This document shows, in pieces, positions 3,101 to 53,886 of a DNA stretch of 64,000 bases. Position numbers and translations under genes: made by a program. Positions within the stretch are counted from its first letter, which is position 1; the number at the start of each line of letters is the position of its first letter. The notes below the pieces were generated by a model. The model was not told where the DNA came from. It worked only from the letters and a program-made list of their open reading frames with translations, and ran no database searches. The stretch spans positions 1 through 64,000 of the forward strand of contig WTXI01000031.1 in assembly GCA_022376515.1 (NCBI GenBank). Reading direction: 5' to 3'. This DNA is from Lactifluus volemus (taxonomy: Eukaryota; Basidiomycota; Agaricomycetes; Russulales; Russulaceae).

Positions 3101-5397
3101 CATCTCAACAACGCAATCAGAATCCTCGGGATCAGAATCTTCGGGATCAGAATCTTCGGGATCAGGATCGTCCGAGTCGGGGTCACCCTTGGGTGCATGT
3201 TGTCGCAGAATAGTCAAAGAACGGATGGAAAGTGGCACCATCGCAGCAAAAAGCTGTCCCATCACAGACCGAAATAGTGTCTGTGCTGCAACCGGTTCGA
3301 AGTATCCTTCCAGAACTTCTCTGTACAGCTGGTCCAACGGATCCCGTCCATCGCGACCTCGTGAGTGTCCCAACAGACGTTGTATGACCTTTTTCCTATT
3401 AAACCCAAAGCTTGGGGGTGGTTTCTTTATCAAACCGCATGCAACGGCTGCCCACTGAAACAACCCTTCCGCTGCCTTTGCCAGTTTGACACCATGTCGT
3501 TTGAACAAGTCCAAGGGGAGTTCGTTCTCGAGATACAAGCGAATATCTTGCTCCGTCTTGGCGGCCAGTTTTCGATCGTCCATGTAAAGGGTGCGTACGG
3601 ACAGCGTATTACCAAATGCCTGTTCGATTCCGTTTTCCGGCCTCGAGGTGATGAGGATGCGAAAATTCGATGGCAACTCGAAGAGATGTTCAGCAAGAAA
3701 TTTGTGTAGTCCGTTTTGGTCAACTACGTCACCGCTCTCGTCCAACGCATCGATCACAATAAGGATTGGATCCCCAAGCTGAAGGTTCTCGAGTGGTTCA
3801 AGGAGGAGGCGTTCGAAAAGTGTGCGGTAGTGTCGAGTGCTACAAAGTGACGGATCATTCTTGAGTACCTTTCCGAGGGCGAGTTTAAAAGCAGGATAGC
3901 GATTGGAGAGGTCGCGAGCAAGTGTTGTGAACAGCTGATGAGCCTCGTCCTTGGAGCCCTCCTTTCGTAGAAAGGCGAAGTAAGATCCGAGATACTTGTT
4001 TTCGAGCCTCCGAGCGACTTCATGTGCAATCGAAGACTTTCCTGTCCCGGCCTGGCCGAGGAGCACGAGTCCACGTTGAGATTCTCGATTCTCGACCCAG
4101 TTCATGATATGGTCCAAGAAGTCTTCTCGTGTTCCCGGAAGACAACGCCTGTCATCGCCAAATCGCAAGCCTCCTTTATAAGGCAATTCTCTGATTGTTG
4201 CGGCCAATTCTTCGTGCCTCTCGTCAGGAAGATTTTCCGACAATCGCATTACCATTAGGACTACGTACCAGCTTCTAGCACAGCAATCCCAGTGACGACA
4301 GCAGTACGTGCGAGGAAATTGTCTCGCAGTCGAGTGAGGTTTGTGCGATACTCATCAATTTTCGTATCAACTTGTCTGACGACATTCTTCAAAGTCCGCT
4401 TTGCTGAAAATCAAATGTTTAGGATGAATCGCCAATAAGAGAGGCCATGACGACATACCGACTTGCACATTCTCCGCATACGATATGATAAATTTCGCAC
4501 ATTCCGAGACGCACTCCAGCATCTCATCCAGGATTTTGCATGAGTAGATCCTGGTTCCATGTTCCTCAAAACGTCCGCCTCCTGTGCAAACTCGAATGCA
4601 TCCTGTATCGCATTGAGTAGTGTTTGGACGTTGTCATCACGCTGAAGCTGGAGTAGCAAAGTCTGGTGACAGACGAAAACCATTCAACGTTCCATCTCCT
4701 CCGACAAGGGTTGGGGACGCACCTCGGGAATCTTTGAGAGTAGAGTCCATGCCAACTGTGCATGGGGGAGCAACTGAAGCGCGAAACCTTGCTTAGCAGA
4801 GCAAATGATGCGCAAATTTGATGTGAGACATACTCCTGCGATTGGTCCGATAGCATCGAGTACTTGCTTGATAACATTCATAGCACTCTTCCATGCCATC
4901 ATCGAATCCATAGCCTTCATTGCTTCCTCGGCACGATCGAGAGTACGTGACATCTCCACCTGGCCGTCTGGTACTGGTCCCACAGGAATATTGCCCCTGG
5001 TGGGAAGGTCACCAGGACGTGCACCACCTTCTTCAGCGCCAGGATTGTCCAGTGCCGTTGTCGTAGGACTTGGGGTATTGGCTGCCACATTTAGAGAGTT
5101 CGTGGACACGGTGATACTCAAGAGGAGTGTGGCCGGCTCTCTTAAGTGTCTACCACGTCCATCAGAACTGCTGAAAACTATCTCAAGATCTAGATGTAGG
5201 ACTCTCAGCGCATGAGTAACAATTCGAAGACATAGACGTACCAGGTTGGGCTTCACAGGTGATCTCCTCCCTTCCGATAAGGATGTCTGTCCGCATGGTC
5301 CTCTTCGCATAAAGCGATACTGTAATACGGGAGAGTGGTTGTAAACCACTGCAGGAATCTCAGTTGGACCGAGGAATGAAAGAACGACAGTGCTCAC
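183..5397 (-). CDS. NACHT-WD40 repeat NLR-like STAND protein, frame broken in places
   Basis: This is a signal-transduction NTPase of the fungal NLR/NWD type; relatives act in non-self recognition and programmed cell death. The N-terminal exons (from 5397) are low-complexity and then helical, with no domain I recognise. A NACHT domain lies at about 4255-3000, with Walker A GQAGTGKSS near 4060 and Walker B LIVIDALDES near 3745. An acidic linker follows, then at least 14 WD repeats from 2340 leftwards. Introns are needed near 4850 (46 nt), near 4700 and near 4450. The frame breaks at an A-run at 4534-4537 (one base short of the expected codon series) and repeatedly in the WD repeats below about 1200. 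The conserved end (PPIHRPYLYKAHTVWVAGR, then TEVDLSNFVLW) is split between frames near 300. The start at 5397 is the first ATG of the N-terminal open frame and is uncertain. It is either a decayed gene or one affected by sequencing indels. Confidence 0.8.
515..2340 (-). repeat. Tandem WD40-coding repeats, 129-bp unit
   Basis: At least 14 consecutive units of 43 codons, each built on the pattern GHT..V.SVAFSPDGQ.IASAS.D.TIRVWDAATGE. Neighbouring units are very alike at DNA level, and the differences concentrate at a few positions. Units 1-10 (about 2340 to 1060) are in one open frame. Later units jump between the three minus frames. This is the high-internal-conservation repeat style known from het-d/het-e type fungal NLRs. 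Confidence 0.9.
3116..3186 (-). repeat. Acidic minisatellite inside the NACHT-WD40 gene
   Basis: A short tandem array with a unit of about 15-18 bp encodes repeated D-P-E-D-S motifs between the NACHT domain and the WD40 repeats. It keeps the reading frame. It is probably a flexible linker of variable length. Confidence 0.8.
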
Positions 5398-7158
5398 GAT
5401 GCATCTACTCTTTCATTCCATTCCACGTGCTGCGCCACGCTCTGCCTCGATCGTGTCTGCCATGTATTCTTCTCGTTCGTCACTGTGACATAAAACTGTC
5501 TCTCCTTCCCCGGGAGGACTTTAAGACGAGGAAGATTGTGTGCCCTGAGGACTGAGAAGAGGGGGAGATTTAGTACTTATCGAGGTAGAATTACTGAGAT
5601 AGGTACCAGTGACCTCGAGCTGGAGTATGCTGGATTGTATTCCGCTGGCCTGAGAGGTGATCGCGCTAATCAAAGGCAATCATCTGAGTAAATACTAGTA
5701 TCGAAATTGAAGATGAAGTGAGTGATGTACCCGATTCGGGACTTTTCCAGTGGAGGATCTGGGCTATAGTAATGGTTAACGGGAACATCAGGATCGAGTG
5801 TGAAGGACATTGGCATACGAATTTGGTTGTGGAAGGGCCATCGCAGACTGAGGTGAGAAGTTGAGAGAAGCACTGGCGCCACTGCCGCATGTTCAGGGTG
5901 CTGGTTCCCCGACTCGGAGGGCGCTTCATCGTGGGGAACAAACAACAAACAATAGTGGGCCGTTAAGTTGACACGTTGACATCTGGAGGCACACTGGCAG
6001 TCCAAACATTTTCGCGGGAGTAGGCCAATTCGCTGGAGTTATCCCAGTGCACATTCTCACACCCGCACGCTTGCATACATCACTGGCAAGGCCGGCATTC
6101 AGTTGAAGTGAAGATTCGGGGATCCCGGGGATCCTTATGATGTCAAAGCCAAATCTCAACAAATAGCCTTACTGTAGTATGAATCTTCGTAATGAATACG
6201 ATGAAGATGCCCTCCATTGAAAGACTGCCTATGGTCCAGAACCAGGTGAATCCCCAGTTTACTTTATCCTCTCAAGTAGAGAATGTAAATGCAAGCAGGC
6301 CGTGCCTTAAACTCTGCTCTAGCGGGGGGGGGGGGGGAAGCTGTATGGTGACCCTTCAGGAAGATGCCTTGACGAATTCGAGGGGCGCAGCTAGGGAAGG
6401 ACCTCCGCGCAGACATCGTAGCCGTGCGTGATAAGCAGCCTCTGTGCTCCCTCCCATTCCTCCTTCTTTTCCTCAGAGTTACGTCAGCAGGAAGGTGGAC
6501 GGGGGTGGCGACGACGATGAAGATGGTTCATAACAGGCGAGGATGGTTCGGAGAGACTGGGCGAGTCAATGACTAACGAAATGAGTAGCAAGAAACCGGT
6601 GAGTGAGACTAGGAAAGAAAGATGAGAGCATTGCCAGTGGACGCAATGGGAGGAGAGGCGATGCAAACGTTGGAGTATGGGCCTTGTTGGAGGGCTCCAT
6701 GTGCCCTTTCCTTTGTGCGTGCCAGAACTAGAAGAGAGCTAAGCATGCTCCCATTGGTGTGGGCTCGCTGGTTGATGGGAACAGGCGAATATCTGTAAGT
6801 TGAGATCTAGCATGTGCTATTACGCTATCCATTCATTCTAGGGGATGAGACACTGGATGACATACTCTCACTCTCAACTGAAACTCGCTGCCATTGGATC
6901 ACCCTCTATGTGGCAATGTCAGACAAGATCCGCAGGAACCGCGGATGAGGCCACGGTGGGACTGAATCCCAGGGGAGCGACGTCGGAGGGCCCTGTTCCT
7001 CCGAGTCCGCGGAGAATTACAATGCCAATAACTGAATGATTGACGCAAGGAATGTTGGCAGAACGACTACTAGTAGCAGGTGACAACATCAACCACCGTG
7101 ACTACTCACTTTGACCATCGATTTCTGAACGATACCGTATCTAAAGCCATAAACTGCA
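5398..7158. other. Intergenic, no recognisable gene
   Basis: This is the upstream flank of the NACHT-WD40 gene and the 3' flank of COG3. Open frames are short and show no family signature. The best is a minus frame at 5670-6005, part of which (near 5850-5720) has protein-like composition, but I cannot assign it. A run of 14 G lies at 6324-6337. Confidence 0.5.
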
Positions 7159-10100
7159 CTAAGTCCGAGCTGGCGGAGAACCTCCACCATCCTCACGAAC
7201 GTCCTGCAACAACTGCTTCAACAATCCATCATCCATCAAACAATCCTGCCCATTCCCAGCGCGCGCTCCGACCTGTCTGGCCGCGAGGCTAAACGCTGAA
7301 TACGCATCCTCGACGCGATCCAGCGCATGCTGCACGAGCACGCCGGCCGTGCGCACATCCGGGACGTACAACCGAACTCGCGCGATGCTTGCCCGCAAAT
7401 CACTTGCGCACGCGTTGCGGAAGGCCTCGTCGAGCACCGCAGCTTCCGCGGCTGACGCCGGTCGGCCCGTGAAGGCCCGCAGCGGTGTGCAAAGCGGCTC
7501 CGATGCAGCGGAAATGACGGACTCGCAGGCATGTTTCAGGTCTTGATCGATTCCCTGTAAGTAGCGTGGACACGTATGAAAAAAAAGGGAGGTCGGGAAA
7601 TTTTAAGTAGAAGTGGATGCGTACTCGTCTCGCATCCGCGAGGTGTTCTGCGCGCATGCCGGCGAGAGATGTGAAGAGGGAACCAGGAAGAAGCGTTGAC
7701 GTGCGCGACAGCACAGAGGATAACATATCTGGAATCCATGATCATTGAACGTATAGCTCCAGGGTGCATAGTTCGATGGGCTGCTGAACCGACCTGCAAC
7801 ACCGTACTGATCTGCGGCTCCACCACCGACACCTACTTGAGGCTCGTCCCTCTGCGCAATGTCCAGATTCCGCGTGATCTCCTTAAGGATTAGTAGATGG
7901 CGGACAAGAAACAGTTGTCCATCGAATCCGCTCTTTGCTCTGACCAAGCCTGCCGCACTCAGCAATGACCCATGGCACAAACTAACGGCCTCATGGGCAA
8001 GGTCATAGAATATAGTTGGCTGTAGGTGTATTCCATATGTTCAACATAAACGTTACAAGATCATAAAAGGCTTGCCTGAACAAAGTCGTGTAGCTGGGAG
8101 AGCACCCACACAGTCTTGGAAAGCGTTGGGTACCACGTCTCGCGTTGGTTAAGCCCTGGGCCCTCAAACAGGCGACTGATGCTCTGCTTCTCGCGAATTT
8201 CGTATCCTGTCTGTGCTCCCTGCGCAGCTGCACATACCTTTAGCAAGGATAGACAATAAAAAAGTGACACGTACCAGCAAGCTTATCTGGGTACGCCAGA
8301 TCTTGGGCCGTTGGAGTATAGTATCGTATGTCGGACTGTATGACAGCCTGTGCCTTGAAAAACAGCCTCGTTTGCGCATCCTGCAATACCATCTGCAGTA
8401 GATGACGAATGTGTAGTCTACCAAGGTCGTCATTCTTCTCCTCATTCTCTTCAATCTCGTCTTCCAGGGGCTGATCGAGCACCATCAGCGCTTGAAGCAC
8501 AGTGCAAACTTCGCAGAGGACAGTTAGCCGAGGCTCGTGTAGGATGCGGGGGCGCAGGTCATCATAGAGGTAATCACAAAGCGTTTCCAAGTACTGGCTG
8601 TTGGCGAGTAATCTGGTCAGTTGGCATGAAAACAAGCATAACCGGTACGTACTAGAGTTCCTGCTTCCCGGTGCTGAAAAATGCCCTGTACAAGTCAAAT
8701 TCTTCAGTGCAAATCTGCTTCAGGTAGCTACACCCGGCGCGTGTCTATAACGCGTTCATGACATATCGTTAGATGACTGAGGATATGATGCAAAAAGGCG
8801 TACCAATTCCACGAGTTCCGTTCTCGTAGGGTCGAGACCGCGGATCTGCTCAGTAAGACGTGAAACCAGGAGGTTCTTTCGTGCGCCAAAGTACGCCCCG
8901 TGGCACTCAGAGAGCAGAGCTCCCAGCTCCTCGGGGTGTGAGTGGGCACGGCGCTCGAATTCTCCAAGAAGAGGTGCAAGCTGGCCAGCCACGGTGGTAA
9001 ACGCGTGTAAAGAAGATGCATTTGTGCGGTGTCAGAGACATCCTGTAAACAGATCAGTGTTTAGAAAAGGTGGTGAGATATCCGCAAAGAAAGGCACCTG
9101 CTCGAAAAGTCGCCGCGAGACATCCTGGGTGAGTGCACGGAGAGATCCAACAAAATACATTTTGATGAGTGTCATTGCACGGGTCATACATTGCTGGAAG
9201 CGTAGAAGATAGACTTCTGCTTCTTTGTAGTTTCTCTAGGGGTGGAGAGGGAAGATGAGCAAGCTCACAAACCTGGCAGAAAAGCGGGTCGTACATGGGA
9301 TTTGAGAAACTCGATGCAGATGTCCACACGCTCAACCATATAGAGAAAGTCGGTCTGGAGAACGAGCGACTCGCCAGGATGATTGAGCAGCCGCGTCGCA
9401 TGCTCCAGTTCCTGAAAGTATTCCAAGGTCGTCCCGATAGCCGTTTGCAGCTCCACCAGTTGATCCTGTAAAACGACGACACAACCATCAAGCTCCTCTA
9501 CGCATCCGAGAGGTGTGTGTGTGTGAGGTGATACGCACCCGCTCGTCCAACAACTTTTGACTCGCGTCCTGCAAACTTTTTCCGCCCTCCTCCACGCTCT
9601 TCCACTTATCCAACATACTCGCAACTTCTGTGTCGACCTGGTCGATCCGGCTGATAAGCCTGTCGCAAGTGTCGAGATGTTCGGAGACGCGCAAAAGATG
9701 GTGTCGGAAGTGAGCTTCCTGGCTATGCGCCACTGAGCGGTCTATTAGCGCGAACCAGTCGTAAAATTGTTGTGGAGTCTGGACTGGCTGCTTCGGATGT
9801 AGTGCGTGTGCGTGTGCAACGGCGGTGGCGGGAGCCTGGCGTGGGAGGACGAGAACCTGAACCAGAACCAAGCTTGACGCGCTGTAGGGGAGTTGATGGA
9901 CGGGAAGCATTGCCAGAATCCTCTCGTGAAGGCTGTAATTATTCTGAGTTGCAAGGGATAAAGGGGAACATAGAAAAGGACTGACTCTGACTGGGATATT
10001 GGTAGTGAGGGTCTCCGCTCAACAGCAGCCTTGAGGGCTGCCACGCTTTTGACCTCAGCATCTCCTAGTGGTGCCTTGGCTTCCCATTCTTCAATAGTGA

Positions 10101-47154: not shown

Positions 47155-47163
47155 GCCTCCACC
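47155..47163. repeat. Target-site duplication, left
   Basis: GCCTCCACC directly before the left terminal inverted repeat, identical to 49747-49755 after the right one. Counting 8 bp (CCTCCACC) leaves one extra base at the right terminus; counting 9 bp gives matching termini. Confidence 0.85.
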
Positions 47164-47172
47164 TAGGGATCA

Positions 47173-47300
47173 GCATGGGTATGGGTAACCCATGTGGGTT
47201 ATGGGTTGGGTAATGCTTGGGTATGGGTGTGGGTAGACTCGGGCTGACCCATAGCCGGGTTAAGCCTGGGTCACCACCCATGTCACCACCCATGCCGCTT
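47173..47300. repeat. Left subterminal ATGGGT/ACCCAT array
   Basis: Dense direct and inverted copies of the hexamer ATGGGT and its variants GTGGGT and TTGGGT, next to the left terminal inverted repeat. The matching array at the right end (49600-49735) is of similar length. Confidence 0.75.
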
Positions 47301-47559
47301 ATCTCAGCTTTGCAGATCTCGCTAGTGTTACCGCGAATTAGCCGAGCTGATCGTGGGAAATTGGTTCCAGGAGTCGTGAGGAGTCGACTCCACTGGCGTC
47401 GCTCTCCCCCTTCTCGCCCCTCTCTGCCGCCGCGTCCCCTCCTCTCACTCTTCTCACTGCCGCTGATTTCCCCCCTTTCCCCTCTCGCTCTTCTCTTTGT
47501 CACTTCCTTCCTTCCTTTCGCTGTCCTCTCTCTCTCTGTTGCCGCCATTGCTGCCCTTT

Positions 47560-48297
47560 GGCGCTCATCGCAGTAGAGTAGGGCTCCGATCGCGGACCAG
47601 ACGCAATACATCGAAAGGCGAATAGCTTTTCGCGTCTCGCTGGCGCTCCGCCTCACGGCGTCATGGCGCACGCACTGCGCTCTGTCGGCAGCGCCGCGTT
47701 GAATTTTGGGTTGGTCGCTCAGGGCGCGGTGGATTTGTATCGGTTCGTCTTTTTTTTTTTTTATGTTGTTTGTATTCATGTCCTTCTGAGGGACTGAAAA
47801 TTTTCGTTTGATGGTGCTGTTGTTGATAGGGAGATTGGATGCTGGTAAACGATTTAATTTTTTTTGGTATTCCGCAGTTTCTGTCGCTAACACAAGATCG
47901 TGGCCTTCTCCTTCCCTCCTCCCCCCCTTCAACTTAAAGGCCTTGGGATGTCTGCGTCGCGTAGTACTAAAAATGCTACACTTTCATCAAATGTTCTGAC
48001 ATTTTGGGTCATTAGGTGGGCATCGTAATCCTTCAAGAGGCTGGCGGTTTCGTTACGGGTTCCAAAGATGTATTGCACGATGGGATCGTGACGGAGGCGA
48101 TCCTGACTGGCCGACGCTACCTTGCCATCCGCGGCGTAGCGGAGACCCCGGTACGTACAAAGATACTGAAAACTCGATTGCACCGCTAACGCACACAACT
48201 TGGGTGAACCAACCAACCAGGAGGAGAGTAGCATCGAAGTGCAGGAACGCATCACGCGTGAATTCACGATACAGTCGAGGATATCCCCCTCGACGAA
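47560..48297 (+). pseudogene. Captured inositol monophosphatase fragment (C-terminal half)
   Basis: Part of an IMPase-family gene (Mg-dependent inositol phosphate phosphatase). The readable pieces in order are: VE*GSDRGPDAIHR near 47573, where the stop replaces an expected Trp (TGG to TAG at 47579-47581); SFSRLAGAPPHGV and GSAALNFGLVAQGAVDLY (to 47740); EIGCW; PWDVCV (metal-binding WD motif, about 47945); ILQEAGGFVTGSKDVLHDG (48020-48085); TGRRYLAIRGVAETP; and EESSIEVQERITREF (48220-48265), with a one-base loss before the terminal DTVEDIPLDE stop at 48297. Introns are retained. The N-terminal half, including the catalytic DPIDGT-type motif, is absent. Not functional as an enzyme. Confidence 0.8.
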
Positions 48298-48470
48298 TAA
48301 AAACAAGGCAGTAGTGCATAAAGGCAGTGAATACATGTCATTACCCACCGGTGATGGATTGGATGGATGCAGTAGAGTACCTGGTATGCTATATAGTGAT
48401 TCCTGCCCTAAATGACACGTCAAAAGTGCGTTTATCTATCTGTCCCTTATATGACACTTACATCCTCGTA

Positions 48471-49105
48471 GAGTATAACATCCGACTACAGTACGCAGAC
48501 GATTTGCCCCTCGTCGACGTGGGACAACCCGGCAAGCCAAGCTATATCCCGGCGGAATCGTGCGCGATTGAACACGGCGAACCTCACCTCGGAAAACTTG
48601 GCCCCAAAGAAAAATCGGACATGCTTAAGGTTGCGAGTCGAAGACCAGCCGAGAGTGCAAAGACCATAACCAGATGATCGTCGTTCGAGCTTCTGGCGCT
48701 GTCATTGACGTACGGCAAAGGACAACCACGCGTGGCCGACAGCAGTTGGAATATCTTGGACATCAGGTTCCACCAGGGTGGCCGTATGACGAATTGGAAG
48801 GTTCTCGTCATGCATGATGGCGTGGAGGCGTTGATGTTCAAGGGTCCCACGGACGAGAGGTTATAGTGTTCATCAAGGCGTTCGCCAACAAGTGCAAGAA
48901 CAGCGGGATGGGCGTCGGCAACGAGCCACCAGTGATCTTGCCCACTGCGGTGCTCCCGCATGTCAAGGACGACCTGGGACGCCGATGCACGATCGAGAGC
49001 ATCTCGCAGACGATCAAGTGTTTCGGAGATGCCAAGGGCATCAGCTTTATCCTCGTCCTCGTGCAGAAAAAGGACGACTATATCTTGCCTGGTATCAAAC
49101 GTCTG
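48471..49105 (+). pseudogene. Captured Argonaute fragment (end of PAZ, L2, MID)
   Basis: Part of an Argonaute gene, the small-RNA-binding core of RNA silencing. It begins at an intron acceptor (CTCGTAG at 48464-48470) with YNIRLQYADDLPLVDVG and SYIPAESCAIEHGEPHLG, then KLGPKEKSDMLKVASRRPAE (PAZ end, to 48655). After a frame change come LALSLTYGKGQPRVADSSWN and FHQGGRMTNWKVLVMH (L2 and the start of MID, about 48690-48815). Then FKGPTDERL and, after a frameshift near 48865, VFIKAFANKCKNSGMGVGN and KGISFILVLVQKKDDYILPG (MID, 48866-49105). The PIWI slicer domain and the N-domain are missing. It has no complete frame, so it is not a working Argonaute. It lies on plus, antisense to the host NLR. 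Confidence 0.8.
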
Positions 49106-49599
49106 GTCTCCGTGTCCGTGTACGCGTGTGTGCTCGTGTCCTTCATACCGGTGTGTCCGTCGGCGGTCGCATTGGTCGGCCTGGCGATCGGCAGCGCGAG
49201 ACTCCTGCGCCGAGCGTGTGTGTCTGAGAGATGTCTGTGACTGCTTAGAGGTCCTACATATAAGTGGTGGTCTTGATAATGGGGTGCGCTTATGGCAGTG
49301 GACTGGAGGTATATCTATTTGGAACATGGACCATGTTTTCGTACAAGGAACCACCGGTGGGGGGCAAGTTTCCCATCGATCTGCTTGATGCGTGCATCTT
49401 GGGCTTTTGAGGTACATGTAGCCTGCTGTAGGGATGTATCATGAATATATTGTTATTGTTGTAGACCTGTCGTTTGGTCACTGGGGTGTAAACTTGTTGA
49501 TGATGGATGACCTCAAGCCAGACATGGGTCCCACGGTGCAGCTAGCAAATGATGTGGCTAAAAATGGCTAGTGGCTCGGCCCGGCTACTGTAGCCGCGG
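49106..49599. other. Transposon interior, unassigned
   Basis: Between the Argonaute fragment and the right subterminal array. One short plus frame (49305-49408; KEPPVGGKFPIDLLDACILG, then F and a stop) looks like the 3' end of a third captured gene, but I cannot identify it. Confidence 0.4.
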
Positions 49600-49735
49600 C
49601 AACACTACCCACATGGGTGACCCATACCCACCTCAACCCACACTAACCCATCAGAATGACCCATGGGTTGATGGGTCATTCACCCATATGGGTATGGGTG
49701 TGGGTCAGCCTCTCGGCACCCACGGGTTCACCCGT
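49600..49735. repeat. Right subterminal ATGGGT/ACCCAT array
   Basis: Dense direct and inverted ACCCAT and ACCCAC hexamers next to the right terminal inverted repeat, mirroring 47173-47300. Confidence 0.75.
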
Positions 49736-49746
49736 GCCGATCCCTA

Positions 49747-49755
49747 GCCTCCACC
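49747..49755. repeat. Target-site duplication, right
   Basis: GCCTCCACC followed by TAAAAGGATTTCTAGC. On the minus strand this is the intron acceptor (CCTTTTAG) plus the first bases of the ankyrin exon, placing the insertion within about 10 bp of that splice site. Confidence 0.85.
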
Positions 49756-49869
49756 TAAAAGGATTTCTAGCATTACCTAAACTGAAATCGAGAATGACAT
49801 ACAGCGTACCAATGTGGGATTAGCGCCAGGTGTAAGGCAGTCTGGGCTTCCTTATCTCGGGAATCATGA

Positions 49870-50480
49870 TTTGCGCCACGAAGAAGAAGAAGCTGGACAA
49901 TTTCCAGGTGTCCGCATTTCGAAGCCAGATGCAATGGGGTCACGTGATCGTTATCCTGGGCATTTGCATCTGCGCCGTGATCGAGAAGAAGTCGAGCAGC
50001 GTCTACGTATCCACCTGTCAATGCAAATTGCAATGGCGTCCTGTTGTCGTTGTCTTGTGAATTTACATTTGCCCCACGAAGAAGAAGAAGCTGGACAATT
50101 TCCAGGTGTCCGCGTTTCGAAGCCAGATGCAATGGGGTCACGTGATCACTATCCTGGGCATTTGCATCTGCGCCGTGATCGAGAAGAAGAAGAAGAAGAA
50201 GCTGGACAATTTCCAGGTGTTCGCATTTCGAAGCCAGATGCAATGAGGTCATGTGATCGTTATCCTGGGCATTTGCATCTGCGCCGTGATCGAGAAGAAG
50301 TCGAGCAGCGTCTACGTATCCACCTGTCAATGCAAATTGCAATGGCGTCCTGTTGTCGGTGTCTTGTGAATTTACATTTGCCCCACGAAGAAGAAGAAGC
50401 TGGACAATTTCCAGGTGTCCGCGTTTCGAAGCCAGATGCAATGAGGTCACGTGATTGTTATCCAGGGCATTCGCATCTGC
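49870..50480 (-). repeat. Near-identical ankyrin repeats in block-2 NLR
   Basis: Units such as LLLDHGADANAQDNDHVTPL, then KRGHLEIVQLLLLRGANVNS, are duplicated almost exactly within one exon. One junction carries an expanded Leu run (QLLLLLLLDHGADAN near 50195), a product of slippage or unequal exchange. Confidence 0.8.
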
Positions 50481-51319
50481 ACCATGATCGAGAAGGAGCT
50501 GAGCAACTTTCAGGGATCCGTTTTCTGATGCAAGGTGTAGCAGCATCCGGCTGTTCTTGTCATGCACACCAGCATCTGCACCATACTCGAGAAGAGCCTT
50601 GGCCACTTCCCAATGATCTTGGATCGACACAGAATGCAATGGTGTCCATCCTCTGTCGTCCTGAGAGTTCAAATCTGCACCATGGGAAACAAGGATCTGA
50701 ACAACTTCCAGGTGTCCTCTTCCTGACGCTAAATTCAGTGGAATGCAGGAGTTCTTGTCGCGTGGATTTGTATCGGCCCCGTGCTGGAGAAGAAATCGCG
50801 TAATCGCCCCGTTGCCCATTTCAGAAGCCATAGATAATGGAGTGTGATTGTCAGACCGCCGAGCGTTTACGTTTTGTGCGCGTTCGACAATGAGGAATTC
50901 TGCGATGTCACATAAGCCGTAGTGTGCCGCGACATGCAATGGAGGTTCTGGTATTTCTTCGTCGAACCGATCGACATGATAATTTATCCAGGCCGTAAAG
51001 TGTGGGGTTGTTGGGTCGAAAAGACGTTTCATGCCATCTTGTACTTCCACTGACGCATTTTCAAACAGGGCATGGTCCTCCCAGTGTCTCACTGAATACT
51101 CAGCGAGAGGGAGCTTGAGGTTATTATTTGTGGCCTCTTTATCGAGGAGCAACAGAGTGCCGAGGCAGGCTTTCGCGACCATGGTGTGAGCAGGTGTAGC
51201 AACAACGTTGTAACGGCGGATGGTAGGCATTCGCGCAGCTGCGAGGCGGCCTGACATTAAGAATTCTTTCACGGAAAAATGTGAGAACTTGACCAGTTTC
51301 GAATGCGTATGGCCTATCT

Positions 51320-51510
51320 GGTCATCGCTATATTCATGGTCCTCTTCACATTCCTCGTCATCGATATCTTCCTCGTCATCGATATCTTCCTCGTCATTGA
51401 TATCTTCCTCGTCATCAATATCTTCCTCGTCATTGATATCTTCCTCGTCATCAATATCTTCCTCGTCATTGATATCTTCCTCGTCATCAATATCGTCCTC
51501 GACAACGGTG
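51320..51510 (-). repeat. Acidic 18-bp minisatellite in block-2 NLR
   Basis: About nine tandem copies of an 18-bp unit (TTCCTCGTCATYGATATC on plus) encode DDEEDI/NDEEDI repeats between the NLR helical region and FSHFSVKEFL. The block-1 gene has only a short linker at this place (near 37220), so the expansion is specific to this copy. Confidence 0.9.
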
Positions 51511-53886
51511 ATCAGACTCGAGCACGTGGTGAGCACAGCCTGTATTGGGTCTTTCCGGCGGCGATCCTCGACAAGCTTGGGAATTTCTCCGGCCTCGAAA
51601 TCGAAAGCAAGAAACTCCGCAAGCTCTTCGACGTAAAACGGACGGGACGCCACCGCCATACACTGAAACAGCCGGTGCGCATAGTCCCAGATTGCCTCAT
51701 CAATATCTTGCAAGGAACGCTCATACGTCCCATCGAGGGTGTCCGGCAATTCTTCCAGAGCAACCCGGATACGCTCCGGAGGGTAGCGGCGAAGGAAGTC
51801 GAATTGACATGAGACCCATTTGAACCTGCATCACATGTGTCAGTCACTATCGCGCAGTTTTGTAGCACCGATGCCTTACATTCTATTGCCCTTTTTCAAA
51901 AGCGCTCTGGTGACTAGTGTCTTCTCCACCTCTCCCCATGTTCCCATGACGAGGTCCGAGTCAACGACAGATCTGATGTATGTTTCGATGTCTCGCCTTT
52001 GTCCCCCCTCTTCGTGAAGGGAAATAAAATGGGACTTCAAGTGGTTCAGGACATTTTGGATGTCGGGTTCAGGGCGAGAAGTGACGCATATACGTAGATT
52101 TGGAAGGTGTAAACCGACAAGCTCTTCCACAAGCTTCAGGACCTTTCCCCGGGGAGATGGAGTACCATAGGCTTTCGGGCATTCGTCAAGAGCATCCACA
52201 ATGAGGTAAATTGGGGGATGTGCAGCACATCGGAAAATATCCTGTAGACATTTTGCAAGTGCGGTGTCACTGGGTTCTTGAAGGCCATTATGGTGTTTCG
52301 AATAGAACCTCGAAAGGAATTCGGAGTAGGACTGGGACTGGTCATGAAGCTGGACCAGAAACGAGGATAATAAACCCCGCAAATTTTTCTTTTCGTCGTC
52401 TCCGAATTCGCAATAGAAGAACGCTAGCGAGGCCGATCCAGACTTGCGCATGCTGTTGATGCATTCAATAATCGACGAGCTTGTCGATGATATCAGTTTC
52501 CACCGAAAAAAAATCCGGAAATGTTGCGTACCAGAGGACGGTCCTTCCAGCGCCGGCTATGACAAAAGAAGCCATCAATCTCGGTGTATTGTTTGGACAG
52601 CAAGGGATACTGACGTTTACCACAAACCCACAAAAGGGAGCCAGACGACTGCCAGTCGACGAAAGTATTACTTTGAATGAGCCATTTCGTGGTCCCGTCG
52701 TGGCAAGCTTCGCACGCTATGCTGTGGTTCTTCCATGGGTTTGGCGGGGAGAGCCAGTGTTGAAGATCTCGCCGGATTTGGTCAGCTGTAAAAGGATCTC
52801 GGTGTTTTTGGCCAGAAATGACGAGATTTTGTGGATAACTGACCCTTTTCTTTCTTCACATGGCTCGTGTCACCGTATGTGATCGCACTCAAATTTTGCT
52901 CAATTCGGGTGACAGCTCCTTGCGTCTGCGTTGTAGTTTCTCGCACCTCCTCCTGGGTAAGCCTATCCCTCTTTGCGCCGTCCATGATCACCGTCGTGTT
53001 CTGCTCAAGACGGGAGACACCTCCGAGCGTCTGCGCCACAGTCGCCCGCACCTCCTCCTGGAGGAGCTTATCCAGCTTCTTTAGTGCCGCCTCGACCTTA
53101 TCCTCTCCGAAAAGCTTCAATACGAACTTCTCTGTATCGTGGTCAGCCATGTGACGTATGGGAAAAAATTCACTTACTCAGTCCTCCTTGCTTTATCTGT
53201 TCCGTAGCCAGAGCGAGGGCAGACAATAGTTCGATGACGATTTTCACAACAATGTTTCTTACTGCCATTGTTGGAAAAGCTTGAGTATAAATATCCAAGC
53301 GTTGGACGAAATTTCCAAGGGACTCGAATAGTTCGAGAAGGGCATCATGGTCGGCATTGACACTCTTCGCGGCCTGAGATACGAGATGTCATTATTGTCA
53401 CGAGAACGCGCGCTGAGAGACTGAATAGACATACGGCGAGGAGGATACCAATGGCAGAAAATATTAACTTTACAGGTGGTATGAGCTGCAGAATATGAAT
53501 CATGGTATGAGCATGGAAACTATCGGCGCATTCACCGGCAGACGCACCACTGAAGCAACACCATGTCCAGCTTGAGTAGCTCCTTGAAGTCCTCTTAGGG
53601 CAGTGCCCGAGCCAGTGAAGACCGTATGCAGAACATCAACAACACGCTTTATGGACTTAATCATCTTGGGGTGACGGTCATCTCCCAGGAATTTACGTTT
53701 ACGAAGGGCCTGTACTTGATCTTGGAGAACTTGAACGACAGACTCAGTGGTGTCGCATGACCTGAGTCGGATGGCAAGTTGATTTTCGATGAGGCTTTCC
53801 CCAACCTTCGATTGGTACTGCTTAACGGCATCATCCAAAAGAGACTGCAAAGTAGACGAGTCAGAGGTATCAGTTGTAGAGGACAT

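Follow-up and report, generated by a model that had tools for sequence, protein, structure and literature searches.

A hAT-like element in Lactifluus volemus that carries nested fragments of several host loci, including an Argonaute gene

Results

A bounded element within an ankyrin-repeat gene

The window analysed here is a stretch of 64,000 nucleotides of Lactifluus volemus DNA. It belongs to contig C235, one of the 628 contigs that make up the 62.4-Mb genome. Loci fetched from the same genome are given L numbers and its contigs C numbers, and Pfam profile searches used stop-to-stop frames. Positions 47164-49746 of the window hold a 2583-bp hAT-like element that starts with TAGGGATC and ends with GATCCCTA. 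Its inverted ends consist of outer arms at 47163-47180 and 49730-49747 (18 nt, 89%) and inner arms at 47176-47199 and 49607-49630 (24 nt, 96%), and both of its flanks read GCCTCCACC, a perfect 9-bp target duplication that would arise by chance at a given position with a probability of 4^-9. The element and its surroundings comprise the following features:

47155-47163, no strand: target-site duplication, left copy, GCCTCCACC
47164-47324, plus strand: 5' terminus common to the element family (TAGGGATC...)
47325-47562, plus strand: 5' interior, pyrimidine-rich, also in the sister copies L009, L010 and L011
47561-48417, plus strand: captured inositol monophosphatase (IMPase) fragment, consisting of the 3' part with inferred introns, the stop codon and a downstream stretch; indels break the frame
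48417-48667, plus strand: captured Argonaute fragment 1, end of PAZ and start of L2 (donor L012 4073-4323, 96%)
48668-49104, plus strand: captured Argonaute fragment 2, end of L2, MID and first Piwi residues (donor L012 4403-4848)
49098-49240, plus strand: fragment related to a stretch beside the KIN17 gene on C47/C223 (L026/L027), 86-87%
49231-49333, plus strand: fragment related to C574/C1/C456, 82-83%
49334-49604, plus strand: 3' interior, also in L009, L010 and L011
49605-49746, plus strand: 3' terminus common to the element family (...GATCCCTA)
49747-49755, no strand: target-site duplication, right copy, GCCTCCACC
49773-51830, minus strand: ankyrin-repeat frame of the host gene whose repeat part holds the element (PF12796, E 2e-94)

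Positions 33000-54000 of the window (minus strand, contig C235) hold an extended array of ankyrin-repeat genes that resemble one another and contain many near-identical units; similar copies occur on C18, C597 and C50. Nine ankyrin units of the window span both flanks of the element at 81-85%, with indels that differ at the insertion point. No exact empty site was found, these units included, nor was an allele of the insertion site recognized, the flank being part of the large array of similar genes.

The ends define a family probably related to hAT transposons

The 5' end of the element occurs at no fewer than 17 places in the genome including the window, with matches of 94-99% over 161 or 144 bases at 8 of the other places and shorter matches, over 44-90 bases, at the rest, and searches with the 3' end gave at least 12 rows at 11 or more places. 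Eight elements with both ends were examined, and five of these carry a perfect flank duplication. The window copy has a duplication of 9 bp, and those of L009 and L010 (each 4218 bp long; GCAAGAAG and ATACTGTG), L021 (5991 bp; GGTGCACC) and L034 (about 4.6 kb; CTCCCCAA) measure 8 bp. No flank duplication is present at L022 and L023, nor at L011, whose 3' end is eroded. The first-pass annotation had taken the locus for an element bounded by terminal inverted repeats (TIRs) and a target-site duplication, and this is borne out by the recurrence of the ends on other copies, four of which have 8-bp duplications of their own; the same observations contradict a pairing of the ends by chance.

Target duplications of hAT elements are 8 bp long, the length seen at four of the eight elements; the 9 bp of the window copy depart from it. 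Transposase-like frames are present in L021 and L034, two relatives with the same ends. Among 120 listed homologues of L034 2392-3615, all fungal proteins and some named for hAT C-terminal dimerisation, 16 carry PF05699, while the family's own frames reach this profile at E values of 0.012 and 0.0098, under its cut-off. A search of the L034 transposase frame against solved structures returned no match and no solved transposase. From these protein comparisons, a relation of the family to hAT is probable. In a DNA comparison the window element has only its two ends in common with L021, and it has no transposase of its own. Outside a 1.4-kb insertion, L021 and L023 agree at 98%. Helitrons have neither TIRs nor target duplications, and gene capture by a Helitron is ruled out here by the presence of both.

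The cargo derives from several host loci

The IMPase cargo (element 398-1254) matches at least 11 genome places over the whole or nearly the whole of its length, at least one further place in two pieces and at least two partly. Seven of these places were fetched, six of which match the full stretch at 91-94% and one in two pieces at 95-96%, and the donor belongs to a family found at 12 or more places. These similar IMPase places (L014-L020 and others; 80-96%) include several that are paired on one contig, and some may be haplotigs.

The open reading frame at 47582-47797 resembles residues 164-212 of solved IMPases (E 0.0024) and matches PF00459 at E 0.022, under the cut-off of that profile. 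The 44-aa exon at 48019-48150, searched alone against profiles and solved structures, gave no match; the fragment is identified as IMPase because of its DNA match together with exon 47582-47797. In donor L014, the frame that ends just 5' of the captured stretch matches PF00459 with an E value of 3e-19. When the IMPase copies were aligned with the element, intron-like stretches, the stop codon and DNA past the stop were common to both. Since intron-like and downstream stretches are kept, DNA was most likely what was copied. As judged from this alignment rather than from gene models, introns appear to be present only in the IMPase part of the cargo. Of the two intron-containing gene fragments described in the first-pass annotation, the IMPase part thus stands, with its introns inferred, but the Argonaute part lies within a single open frame of its donor.

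The two Argonaute fragments occupy element positions 1254-1504 and 1505-1941. The best donor is L012 on C24, and its haplotig L013 on C156, which is 98.7% alike over 6.5 kb, is nearly as good. Fragment 2, which is also present in L009 and L010, agrees with the donor at 93% without gaps and 91% with gaps, and deletions of 8 bp and 1 bp break its frame. Between the two fragments 79 coding donor bases are absent, and their position inside a 421-aa open donor frame shows that no intron is involved. The window frame 48315-48677 matches Argonaute chains at E 5e-6 and the PAZ profile PF02170 at E 0.0003, under its cut-off. The donor frames match ArgoN, ArgoL1, PAZ, ArgoL2, ArgoMid and Piwi (PAZ and ArgoMid under cut-off), and the Piwi matches are free of internal stops, so that the donor looks intact. 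Among 120 listed relatives of the donor frame, named organisms include Phlebiopsis, Paxillus, Taiwanofungus and Russula; the best of the matches listed is at 94%, and the Russula match is at 71% over 47% of the query. Several other Argonaute-type genes exist in the genome, as indicated by 22 Piwi rows and 11 ArgoL2 rows (two of them L009 and L010), which are exons or pieces and not genes.

Two further observations concern Argonaute pieces. L025 4617-5277 (from C619:81116 on) is another broken Argonaute piece with an internal deletion, similar to donor 3594-4033 and 4357-4592 at 88-89%. The Argonaute breakpoints at window 48667/48668 (donor 4323/4324) and at base 1921 of the L009 element (donor 4320) nearly coincide, lying within 4 bp of each other.

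The Argonaute sequence, first described as PAZ-L2-MID from 48471, begins at 48417 and consists of two pieces. IMPase and Argonaute are both present as proposed, and the cargo also draws on no fewer than two other loci, represented by the C47-type piece (element 1935-2077) and the C574-type piece (element 2068-2170). Around the two Argonaute alleles, 9.9 and 9.8 kb of sequence were retrieved, and neither stretch contains an IMPase match. Over the roughly 10 kb fetched per allele, therefore, the two genes are not adjacent and the donors lie elsewhere, and the expectation of an intact donor holds for Argonaute, of which an intact-looking gene is present. The frames of the window cargo are broken by the 79-bp, 8-bp and 1-bp Argonaute deletions and by small indels in IMPase, and the window cargo most likely does nothing as protein.

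Sister copies carry nested cargo and moved after capture

An alignment of L009 and L010 over 4215 columns shows 98.4% identity, and outside the elements the two loci have nothing but repeats in common. Because the same chimera stands at two sites with separate 8-bp duplications, it moved after capture. Both copies contain the probably older Argonaute piece that is common with the window, and inside that piece a further host gene. In L009 the family end is followed by a repeat-like stretch (C609, 89%), 158 bp from C1:1919354 (93%), 429 bp from C47/C223 (96%) that lack 64 bp, roughly 410 bp resembling a multi-copy sequence (C589 and others, 84-86%), Argonaute 4320-4548 (97%), 1094 bp from a C597/C50 gene (94%), Argonaute 4547-4848 (94%), another C47-type piece of greater divergence (87%), a piece of the C574 type (81%) and the other family end. 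No Argonaute base was lost where the C597 piece entered. Two Argonaute bases stand on both sides of it, and the C597 donor matches there too, so that the doubled bases may come from the C597 donor. L011 has the left part of L009 up to the start of the Argonaute piece, no Argonaute and a longer C574-type piece. L021 contains, at 6873-7493 (element 4990-5610), about 520 bp of a Nup93/Nic96 gene at 92%, with PF04097 on the donor frames; as L021 is a transposase-like copy, capture is not confined to short elements.

The element therefore combines TIRs shared with a family, a target duplication, donors elsewhere and the lack of its own transposase, features by which Pack-TYPE and Pack-TIR elements are recognized. 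The remaining feature, movement after capture, is seen with L009 and L010 and not with the IMPase-bearing form, of which the genome yielded a single copy. The original reading of the locus as a Pack-type element withstands the tests of gene adjacency, chance ends and missing donors, and the comparison with its own genome suggested at that time did uncover donors and other copies of the element.

Junctions and the order of gains

The different layers held by the sister copies allow a sequence of gains to be proposed. The window, L009 and L010 all have the same junction between Argonaute 4848 and the C47-type piece. Over donor 4549-4848 these three copies share six changes relative to L012; the change at 4573 agrees with L013 and the other five are new to both donor alleles. 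A sixth change new to both alleles, at 4437 within 4403-4548, also occurs in L025. Because of the shared C47 junction and the six shared changes, fragment 2 was most likely gained once, and the same evidence speaks against an independent gain in the window and in L009/L010.

Eight of 13 junctions are legible on both sides. Those of the window have 2, 1, 0 (at the 79-bp gap) and 4 matching bases and those of L009 have 0 (at the 64-bp gap), 0, 3 and 4, the last being the same junction as the window's. These values fit gap repair with template switching, and are too few for a test against chance. For animal Pack-TIRs, template-switching gap repair has been proposed with a median microhomology of 2 bp (PMC8277862).

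We consider it highly probable that the element is a non-autonomous Pack-hAT (transduplication) chimera, built stepwise through template-switching gap repair. What can be observed directly are the ends shared by the family, the target duplications, donors at other loci, cargo within cargo and the presence of one chimera at two sites; the steps themselves are proposed. An internal break, or the gap left by excision, would be repaired by copying other chromosomal DNA, the cargo thus coming from DNA, with template switches at 0-4 matching bases. Transposase would be supplied in trans by relatives with the same ends, and the copies would then be methylated and decay at CpG. The starting form was likely an L011-like chimera without Argonaute, and the next gain was likely Argonaute fragment 2 together with the C47-type piece. 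On the L009/L010 branch the C597/C50 gene would then have entered the Argonaute piece without loss of Argonaute bases and the element would have moved at least once, while on the window branch IMPase and a second Argonaute stretch would have taken the place of the left interior. The order of build-up rests on few copies, and L011, instead of representing the starting form, may have lost its Argonaute piece.

Captured pieces show CpG decay

The alignment of window Argonaute fragment 2 with its donor contains 31 mismatches over 437 columns. Of these, 21 are C-to-T or G-to-A at a donor CpG, which amounts to decay of 21 of 108 donor CpG bases. Other captured pieces range from 3/50 to 11/52. As controls, the Argonaute alleles show 0/170 such changes, the C597/C50 alleles 2/164 and host IMPase copies 2/155 and 5/154. 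Between L009 and L010, transitions at a CpG of one copy account for 51 of the 68 differences. The observed/expected CpG ratio is 0.95 in the window element, 0.97 in the rest of the window, and 1.23 and 1.36 in the donors; the decay is visible against the donors, not against the surroundings. CpG-type decay is described for basidiomycete transposons (PMC4352252). The decay of the captured pieces, of the kind that methylated and silenced DNA would show, suggests that the elements are themselves silenced.

CpG decay also differs among layers. Fragment 1 versus fragment 2 gives 3/46 versus 21/108 (P 0.05), or 10/251 versus 31/437 when all mismatches are counted (P 0.13). IMPase plus fragment 1 versus fragment 2 plus the C47-type piece gives 16/200 versus 28/159 (P 0.009), and the cargo layers of L009 give 17/275 versus 19/125 (P 0.007), the layer groups for these P values having been picked after the data were seen. 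We favour the reading that fragment 1 of the window is a second, later Argonaute gain.

Other readings of the Argonaute cargo and of the chimera

The Argonaute cargo raises the question of an effect on silencing. Stretches of 21 nucleotides identical to the donor gene (L012 2883-6000) make up 183 of 2563 21-mers in the window element, 159 of 4198 in L009 and 228 of 4198 in L010, and because of these shared 21-mers small RNAs from the element could pair with the donor mRNA. It is conceivable, though very unlikely, that the hAT family would keep and extend a piece of a host Argonaute gene such that small RNAs raised against the element would hit a silencing Argonaute and silencing would limit itself. 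We also view as very unlikely the proposal, raised as speculation in the first-pass annotation, of the cargo as an anti-silencing device, in which transcripts or small RNAs of the element would lower host Argonaute and thereby protect the family. The presence of Argonaute pieces in three family members, with a second piece in the window copy, would agree with such a device. However, the family has captured at least six other loci (IMPase, C47/C223, C597/C50, C1, C589-type and C574-type) plus Nup93 in L021, and most of these have no identified product. To our knowledge, the named genes other than Argonaute have no silencing role. The second Argonaute piece is explicable by homology to the first, the captured pieces show the decay expected of silenced DNA, the genome holds several other Argonaute-type genes, and a search for ungapped arms of at least 14 detected no inverted Argonaute arms in the element.

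Another possibility is that a captured frame is in use, for example that the C597-derived frame of L009, which remains open over 283 aa from stop to stop (element 2134-2982), would be expressed as a new protein. As the C597/C50 donor frame has no Pfam match and the window copy is without C597 cargo, we assign this possibility a very small chance.

Broken frames, and an arrangement in the window that is seen once, would also be expected if the fragments were pseudogenes in an old host segment that two unrelated inverted ends bracket by chance. This is extremely unlikely given the family ends and target duplications, the Argonaute-to-C47 junction in common with L009 and L010, donors on other contigs and the lack of any IMPase match in the sequence retrieved around either Argonaute allele; the chimera at two sites, L009 and L010, contradicts it. 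An assembly error is scarcely credible either, for although this is a draft genome of 628 contigs with haplotigs present, the Argonaute-to-C47 junction recurs on three contigs (window, L009 and L010) that differ in substitutions and flank duplications, while the IMPase junctions are seen once only.

Discussion

Collectively these data favour a Pack-hAT chimera assembled in steps from several host loci. Because layered sister copies and donors occur in the same genome, the gap-repair model of Pack elements becomes testable in a fungus, and the Argonaute cargo provides a natural case in which to ask if small RNAs directed at a transposon also act on a gene for silencing.

In fungal TIR transposons, the ToxA gene is said to be carried by a ToxhAT element, and TET/JBP dioxygenases reportedly occur in DNA transposons.

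The first-pass annotation had held that few clear cases of such capture exist in fungi. Few is right, but the number is not zero, as hAT transduplication of histone H3 has been published (PMC3538342; PMC6710886), and a Tc1/Mariner element with a captured osmosensor-like frame is also described in fungi (PMC3538342; PMC6710886). In the open-licence literature we found neither a captured Argonaute in a fungal TIR element nor such an element with several gene fragments nested in it. The fungal TIR-transposon captures found in print are of whole genes or frames, whereas the present case is a patchwork of gene fragments. Fungal hAT transduplication itself is known; a nested, multi-donor patchwork with Argonaute was not among the cases found.

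In Pyrenophora tritici-repentis, a hAT element has transduplicated a histone H3-like gene (PMC3538342). As in the present family, a fungal hAT holds a host-type gene between its TIRs, and long and short forms occur in Pyrenophora. There the element carries the whole H3-like gene, has ESTs and occurs as 10 long and 16 short copies that are nearly identical (PMC3538342), whereas here several broken fragments from different donors are nested in few copies. Pseudocercospora and its relatives show a hAT capture of histone H3 (PMC6710886) in which, as here, the copies are mutationally inactivated and the donor survives. That gene was captured from a transcript and is present in hundreds of copies affected by RIP (PMC6710886), in contrast to the retained intron-like stretches, few copies and CpG-type decay observed here. 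In a Pleurotus study, the Helitrons of that fungus, which are without target duplication, are described as capturing no host gene fragments (PMC4289320).

The element resembles the Pack-hAT and Pack-TYPE elements of maize and rice (PMC8903248) in being a non-autonomous TIR element with captured coding DNA, and the 8-nt duplication of the plant elements recurs in four of the eight family members examined. Those are plant elements, whereas here the host is a fungus and the nested gains can be read from sister copies. With the animal Pack-TIRs (PMC8277862), for which gap-filling and FoSTeST models are presented and of which hAT is the commonest carrier, it shares junction microhomology and multicopy cases with distinct target duplications. 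The animal Pack-TIRs are mostly single-copy and more than half lie less than 15 kb from the parent; here the identified donors are on other contigs. Finally, DNA transposons are linked with fungal Argonaute genes in Rhizophagus irregularis as well (PMC8647823), but there the AGO genes adjoin MULEs, whereas in Lactifluus volemus the Argonaute fragments lie inside a hAT-like element.
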